From the IMG/VR virus record IMGVR_UViG_3300044998_000260, positions 1 through 64,000 of that record: DNA of 64,000 nt, one strand, 5' to 3'. Origin of the DNA: a virus. Under the pieces are notes generated by a model. That model saw only the letters and a list, made by a program, of their open reading frames with translations, was not told the origin of the DNA and made no database searches. Both the position numbers and the translations under genes were made by a program. Numbering within the stretch: the stretch's first letter is position 1; every line of letters begins with the position of its first letter. Shown here in pieces: positions 54,167 through 54,451 of the stretch.

Positions 54167-54266
54167 TACGCCTACTGGGACTTGAACCCAGAATAATCCG
54201 CATATCAGGCGGCTCCTTTCGGGCGGAGGTATAAGCTCCGTGCTTTAACCATTAAGCTATAGGCGC
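54167..54266 (-). tRNA. tRNA-Ile (UAU)-like with second anticodon-like arm
   Basis: 100 nt. Acceptor GCGCCTA/TAGGCGT, D arm, anticodon arm CGGAG-CTTATAC-CTCCG, then a 32-nt insert in the variable region that contains CCGC-CTGATAT-GCGG, a second 7-nt-loop hairpin with GAU. It could be a tRNA-Ile(GAU) invaded by a UAU arm, or the reverse. Confidence 0.6.
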
Positions 54267-54282
54267 GTATATTCACCACAAG

Positions 54283-54359
54283 TCCGCCCAATAGGAATCG
54301 AACCTACGTGGTACCGTCTATTCTTTCAACCGCATATCAGGCGGAGGGAATATGGGCGG
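54283..54359 (-). tRNA. D-arm-less tRNA-like element, GAU hairpin
   Basis: 77 nt. Acceptor CCGCCCA/TGGGCGG, T8 A9 and T arm GTAGG/CCTAT, but the D arm is replaced by a long arm: TATTC...GAATA enclosing CCGC-CTGATAT-GCGG. Sister element at 54376-54451. Confidence 0.5.
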
Positions 54360-54375
54360 ATATTTTTACTACAAG

Positions 54376-54451
54376 TGCGCCCGACTGGAATTGAACCAGT
54401 GTGTACCGTCTACCTTTTCAACCGCTTATCAGGCGGAGAGGATACGGGCGC
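54376..54451 (-). tRNA. D-arm-less tRNA-like element, GAU hairpin
   Basis: 76 nt. Acceptor GCGCCCG/CGGGCGC, T8 A9, T arm ACTGG/CCAGT; interior TATC...GGTA around CCGC-CTGATAA-GCGG. Acceptor, T stem and interior stem differ from the 54283 element by paired changes, while TTGAAA and AGACGGTAC are kept, so both folds appear selected. Confidence 0.5.

Follow-up and report, generated by a model that had tools for sequence, protein, structure and literature searches.

What becomes of a transfer RNA (tRNA) gene in which no D arm precedes the anticodon arm is the question raised by a small locus in virus record IMGVR_UViG_3300044998_000260, a sequence of 105,488 bases that carries a large tRNA array on its minus strand. 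Within the window (positions 1 to 64,000 of that record, the whole stretch of DNA analysed) ARAGORN called 44 tRNAs and one transfer-messenger RNA (tmRNA). Two minus-strand elements of the array, B (54284..54359, 76 nucleotides (nt)) and C (54377..54451, 75 nt), received no ARAGORN call and scored below the Rfam threshold in the window scans. A first-pass annotation had described them, together with the neighbouring element A, as three tRNA-like genes with a common hairpin, and had suggested that they might be minimal isoleucine (Ile) tRNAs, decoys or a new tRNA-like class. Here we propose, with a probability of roughly 0.86, that B and C are functional elongator tRNAs with a rewired core, which would read the isoleucine codons AUU and AUC. 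They belong to a widespread class of Ile and arginine (Arg) tRNAs, found in phages and a few bacteria, in which the D loop follows the anticodon arm.

Both elements proved to be real, lying on the minus strand with ends one base inside the limits first assigned to them, and in each the acceptor stem (7/7 pairs) and T arm (5/5 pairs, T loop GTTCRA) are normal. An ordinary tRNA has its D loop closed by a D stem on the 5' side of the anticodon arm; B and C have no D arm there. The region between acceptor and T arm consists, on the minus strand, of UAU, three bases, CU and a hairpin of four base pairs (bp) with the loop CUGAUAW, followed by UUGAAA, three bases and UAGACGGUAC(C)AC. The hairpin, CCGC-CUGAUAW-GCGG in both genes and rightly singled out at the outset for its conserved GAU loop, is the anticodon arm: CCGC-CUGAUAU-GCGG at 54330..54344 in B (GAU at 54336-54338) and CCGC-CUGAUAA-GCGG at 54422..54436 in C (GAU at 54428-54430), both in columns 16-30 of alignment A1. 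It is enclosed by a short stem, P, in which CCU (54439-54441) pairs with AGG (54413-54415) in C, and whose equivalent in B is 54347-54349 with 54321-54323; both correspond to a helix, 11-13/37-39, that recurs across the family described below. Stem P of B is the one imperfect case, with 2/3 pairs in the consensus register and 5 bp in the register of the first-pass annotation. Between this stem and the T arm lies a D-loop-like segment, UAGACGGUACCAC at 54308..54320 in B, which holds the equivalents of A14 G15 .. G18 G19 U20 .. C48, and UAGACGGUACAC at 54401..54412 in C, aligned to it in A1; UA, GG and CA are conserved in these segments. The order of parts in B is acceptor, UAU, stem P, anticodon arm, stem P', D-loop-like segment, T arm and acceptor.

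The three-gene block had no blastn match among annotated phages, and B had none among plasmids. The first relatives came from pattern scans of viral contigs, and a general pattern that left the anticodon, acceptor and T arm unspecified was then applied to viral contigs, for which the counts are lower bounds, and to contigs of 84,980 prokaryote species. Loose DNA patterns returned mostly coding sequence, and only matches with acceptor and T arms were kept; an unfiltered census of T-arm matches was too noisy, and a stricter one was used instead. After structure filtering, Ile-type relatives occupied at least 147 places and comprised at least 112 unique sequences, and this family, with its covarying structure, bears out the suggestion of a new tRNA-like class. 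The three-base stem 11-13/37-39, which was not part of the filter, is fully paired in 111 of the 112 unique members listed; the stem reported as changing in pairs is real. The anticodon loop is CU-NAU-A-N in all 112, though only U33 was specified in the search, and the anticodons among the matches listed are UAU (64), GAU (39) and CAU (9), with no others. The base after the acceptor stem is A (A73), and the next is C, in 111/111 readable members listed; A73 formed part of no search pattern. ARAGORN in bacterial mode found 0/112 of these unique sequences. When the covariance model R1 was run on 40 whole records, members scored about 49 to 96 bits and ordinary tRNAs less than about 37 bits; B and C score 82.1 and 88.9 bits, respectively. 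A generic descriptor, which required U33, R37 and GG but named no anticodon, matched 157 unique instances in real loci, none in reversed sequence and 1 of 15,070 shuffled middles. Across 4.1 Mb of collected sequence all the anticodons it returned were those of Ile or Arg, once one false match, three register artefacts and one canonical tRNA are set aside. At three loci (L226 4368, L229 5210 and L380 743) variants of the Ile(UAU) layout have the D-loop part separated from the T arm by a far longer stretch.

It could be argued that such sequences, having no ARAGORN calls, are decaying or chance tRNA-like matches, an explanation to which we give almost no credence. RNAalifold applied to A1, an alignment of 72 diverse sequences, yields exactly the proposed structure, unaided. 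In this alignment 98.2% of cells are paired and 18/19 pairs changed on both sides, and the covariation score is 0.946, against 0.200 for shuffled and at most 0.181 for slid controls. The acceptor stem (7 bp) and the T arm (5 bp, 7-nt GTTCRA loop) have 97.2% and 97.5% of cells paired, with double changes in 11 of their 12 pairs; the anticodon arm covaries in 4/4 pairs, and helix 11-13/37-39 is paired in 99.5% of cells, with double changes in all three pairs. Compensatory change had been read as a sign of selection from two copies only, and the covariation extends across the family. This massive covariation, together with the reversed and shuffled controls and R1 scores near 80-96 bits in independent phages, refutes decay or chance.

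The structure also indicates where the D loop has gone. The D stem-loop that a canonical cloverleaf has between acceptor and anticodon arm is absent in all members, and the Rfam tRNA model, run with permissive settings, aligns them with the D arm deleted and 17-20 nt inserted before the T arm. Directly 3' of the enclosing stem the family reads UA-R-NN-GG-N, which resembles a D loop (A14 R15 .. G18 G19 N20). The GG was required by the descriptor and is not an independent test of D-loop contacts. Bases 15 and 48 offer one: among 27 members outside all retrieval patterns they are G-C in 4 and A-U in 23, a tally that drops a single exception, a false match with anticodon GGA. Because the 15-48 Levitt pair is kept at the relocated segment, the D loop is, as judged from sequence, moved to a GG-containing stretch between the anticodon and T arms, and not lost. 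Thus, the description of B and C as minimal Ile tRNAs stands as regards Ile, but they are neither minimal nor simply D-armless.

The same layout is also used by Arg tRNAs. These first came up as weaker R1 matches with the same segment order, and two of them provided a pattern that matched 37 places. The Arg anticodons seen with this layout are UCU, CCU, ACG and UCG, with C35 in all, and the anticodon loop of the Arg type is CUYCUAA. In the Arg type A9-N10-N11 pairs with the N-N-U that follows GGA, and 30 sequences contain 11 double changes at pair 10-48 and 15 at pair 11-47. For the Arg alignment the structure drawn by RNAalifold lacked the outer helices 9-11/47-49 and 12-14/36-38; the pair counts back 10-48 and 11-47, and at 12-13/37-38 the CG was partly fixed by the search pattern. 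L157:1357 is an intermediate: its body is of the Ile type, its anticodon is CCU and it has A20. Outside the patterns, all 17 Arg members have A at base 20, and the 10 Ile members have T (9) or C (1) there; base 73 is A in 10/10 Ile members and A, G or T in the Arg type. In bacteria, Arg identity depends on A20 (the main determinant), C35 and A/G/U73, and Ile identity on A73, U20, A35, U36 and A37, and also on C4-G69 (PMC9976931). Apart from C4-G69, the new class obeys these rules at the relocated positions, which argues that the synthetases would see a normal-looking elbow. Ile and Arg were the only isotypes that the anticodon-free generic search found to use this layout.

Genomic context is in keeping with use in translation. 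In 15 phage records read end to end, 18 of the 20 pairs of record and anticodon (CAU excluded) lacked a canonical gene with the same anticodon, and the phage of the window has 47 ARAGORN tRNAs but no canonical GAU gene. In one genus of crAss-like phages the tRNA arrays match one another gene for gene. Where crAss001 carries a canonical tRNA-Ile(GAU), flanked by tRNA-Trp and tRNA-Met, tikkala carries a new-type tRNA-Ile(GAU), and the 3' flank of the slot is the same in both; the parts of crAss001 searched contained no new-type gene. No isoleucyl-tRNA synthetase (IleRS) gene was found in 30 virus records, so charging would be by the host. The partner gene TilS occurs, among phage records, only in G002, a 459-kb record with a TilS-like tRNA-Ile lysidine synthetase at G002:C1:108664-109224.

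The class occurs in cultured phages of several bacterial genera. Streptomyces phage records with the Ile type number more than 40 (among them Jay2Jay, 89.0 bits, and Coruscant, 91.6 bits), and the Bacteroides phage tikkala carries it as well (84.1 bits). Almost all of the cultured-phage records listed leave the gene itself unannotated, and in EGole, a related Streptomyces phage, a tRNA-Leu is annotated over the site. The Arg type occurs in Maribacter phage Panino, in the Pseudomonas phages PA11, TC6, IME180 and Ty, and in Boevelstad, where a gene for an RNA ligase lies close by. Chromosomal copies in Bacteroidota lie within tRNA arrays, and in a 98-genome sample of one family three carried the Ile type. 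Some RNA-repair islands of Bacteroidota, which carry RtcB and RlaP genes, contain a new-type tRNA-Ile(UAU) (L264 592-1668, 3135-3210 and 3959-5416; G031 and G034), and the genomes G031, G032 and G034 have two RlaP and two or three RtcB repair genes within about 20 kb. In Jay2Jay and Coruscant, the two Streptomyces phages tested, an RlaP-family nucleotidyltransferase gene (L398 11463-11984; L399 5462-5983) lies directly upstream of the new tRNA, with 13-14 nt between its end and the tRNA. This association hints at a connection with tRNA damage, but, since most phage records with the class carry neither RlaP nor RtcB, it is no more than a lead.

How might such a molecule work? After U8-A9, a short stem encloses the anticodon arm, in place of a D stem closing the D loop; the D-loop sequence A14 G15 NN G18 G19 N20 follows this stem and leads into base 48 and the T arm. 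Contacts at the elbow, of G18G19 with the T loop and of 15 with 48, would remain open to the relocated bases, so that an L shape can form by a different chain path. One layout serves both Ile (GAU, UAU, CAU) and Arg (UCU, CCU, ACG, UCG), and the RNAs, once expressed and matured, would be charged by host IleRS or ArgRS (arginyl-tRNA synthetase) and used in decoding. Charging is predicted by the isotype-matched bases, the A73 rule, the slot replacement and the absence, from most records, of same-anticodon canonical genes. It should be emphasized, however, that several points weigh against this reading. The sequences behind the 15/48 and identity-base tallies are related, and raw counts overstate their independence; among the listed bacterial determinants of Ile identity, C4-G69 is not fixed here; records G011 and G015 carry a canonical GAU gene besides the new type; and the L shape is inferred from the retained contacts.

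An odd body bearing a normal anticodon loop could instead be a mimic, absorbing a host tRNA-cutting effector or being cut in place of real tRNAs, and taking no part in translation. Phage-encoded tRNAs have been put forward as a counter to defences that target tRNAs (PMC10264068), and the proximity of new-type genes to RtcB and RlaP, within about 20 kb in three Bacteroidota genomes, would suit such a role. A decoy would not need the charging that its bases 20 and 73 and the A73 rule predict, nor does a pure decoy fit well with the replacement of a canonical tRNA-Ile(GAU) slot and the lack of a same-anticodon canonical gene in most records, and we regard this role, raised by the first-pass annotation, as improbable. 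The functional-tRNA reading could, conversely, be extended by supposing that the rearranged body was selected as an escape from nucleases that recognise the usual core, be they RNases of the host or enzymes that depend on modification. The layout is confined to Ile and Arg, and Arg tRNAs are targets of colicin D. Colicin D is also named in the work on phage tRNAs and defence (PMC10264068), and the RlaP genes directly upstream in Jay2Jay and Coruscant, with the repair islands around the chromosomal copies in G031, G032 and G034, point the same way. Most phage records with the class, however, lack both RlaP and RtcB, and the anticodon loops look normal, so this addition is possible but doubtful. 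Equally tentative is the broadest version of our proposal, that the class is a second natural tRNA topology, carried by phages of several bacterial phyla and by Bacteroidota repair islands for Ile and Arg decoding, and selected for evading tRNA-damaging defences while charging and decoding were kept.

Element A (54167..54266, minus strand) does not, as had been supposed, add a third member. It is an ordinary cloverleaf tRNA-Ile(UAU) with an expanded variable region (Rfam tRNA, 60.6 bits), a neighbour of B and C that stands outside the new class. The hairpin reported in its variable region is present: the 15-nt CCGCCTGATATGCGG (CCGC-CUGAUAU-GCGG) is identical to B in all 15 bases, which may reflect gene conversion or chance. 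A is the sole case, among the loci collected, of this hairpin inside a variable region, and the tRNA-Ile(UAU) of phage record G001, with a comparably long variable region, has a different loop, CUGAGAU; a dual-anticodon reading of A was rejected on these grounds. Other features of the window were noted. On the minus strand, these are a GOLLD RNA (RF02032, 198 bits) at 47903-48369 with a tRNA-Ser(gct) call inside it (48228-48302); a group I intron match (RF00028) at 49806-50007, close to tRNA-Leu(caa) at 50202-50276; and a CTA-anticodon, amber-reading tRNA at 47207-47279, labelled Pyl by ARAGORN, of which the related record G001 also has one and which may point to reassignment of a stop codon. 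A CAU-anticodon tRNA at 54081-54139 (minus strand) has a 5' acceptor strand, GGTCCCT, that is unpaired with the CACGTGC after the T arm, and Rfam matches its inner part only; decay, a split gene and misassembly are candidate readings. HNH endonuclease genes within the array (53178-53687, minus strand; 56031-56555, plus strand) are probably homing endonucleases; for 54457-54918 (minus strand), adjoining C, the sole match is a weak one to DUF6510.

The existence of tRNAs with a rearranged core shows that the order in which the chain runs through that core can vary. The tRNA counts of many phage genomes are, in consequence, incomplete, and apparent Ile(GAU) gaps can be filled by genes that ARAGORN missed. 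The class provides natural scaffolds for tests of synthetase recognition, of tRNA engineering and of resistance to tRNA-cutting defence enzymes. No description of the relocated-D-loop layout was found in Rfam 15, ARAGORN or an open-access library of papers.

The new class shares with canonical bacterial tRNA-Ile and tRNA-Arg (Rfam RF00005) the acceptor and T arms, an anticodon arm with U33 and A37, A73 (Ile), A20 and C35 (Arg), G18G19 and the 15-48 pair. In contrast with canonical tRNAs, it lacks a stem-loop ahead of the anticodon arm, on the acceptor side; the stem found in place of the D stem is built around the anticodon arm, and the D-loop sequence comes after that arm, on its 3' side. Unusual segment order is also seen in the permuted tRNA genes of archaea and algae, which are circularly permuted and restored by RNA processing; in the new class the 3' half does not precede the 5' half, the acceptor strands remain at the ends in normal order, and only the D loop is moved. 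Allo-tRNAs, tRNA-Sec and tRNA-Pyl are likewise natural bacterial tRNAs of non-standard form, with unusual stem lengths, but in all of them, to our knowledge, the D arm stays where it normally is. The lack of a D arm before the anticodon arm is shared with D-armless mitochondrial tRNAs (for example tRNA-Ser) and with the engineered mini-HisT, a 62-nt molecule with a Y-shaped model, and the 2024 paper that describes the latter states that no bacterial tRNA was known to depart in this way from the cloverleaf and the L fold (PMC11551756). Whereas those molecules lose the D loop and its contacts, the new class keeps the D-loop sequence, with its Levitt covariation, in a 3' segment of a tRNA of normal length (75-80 nt).
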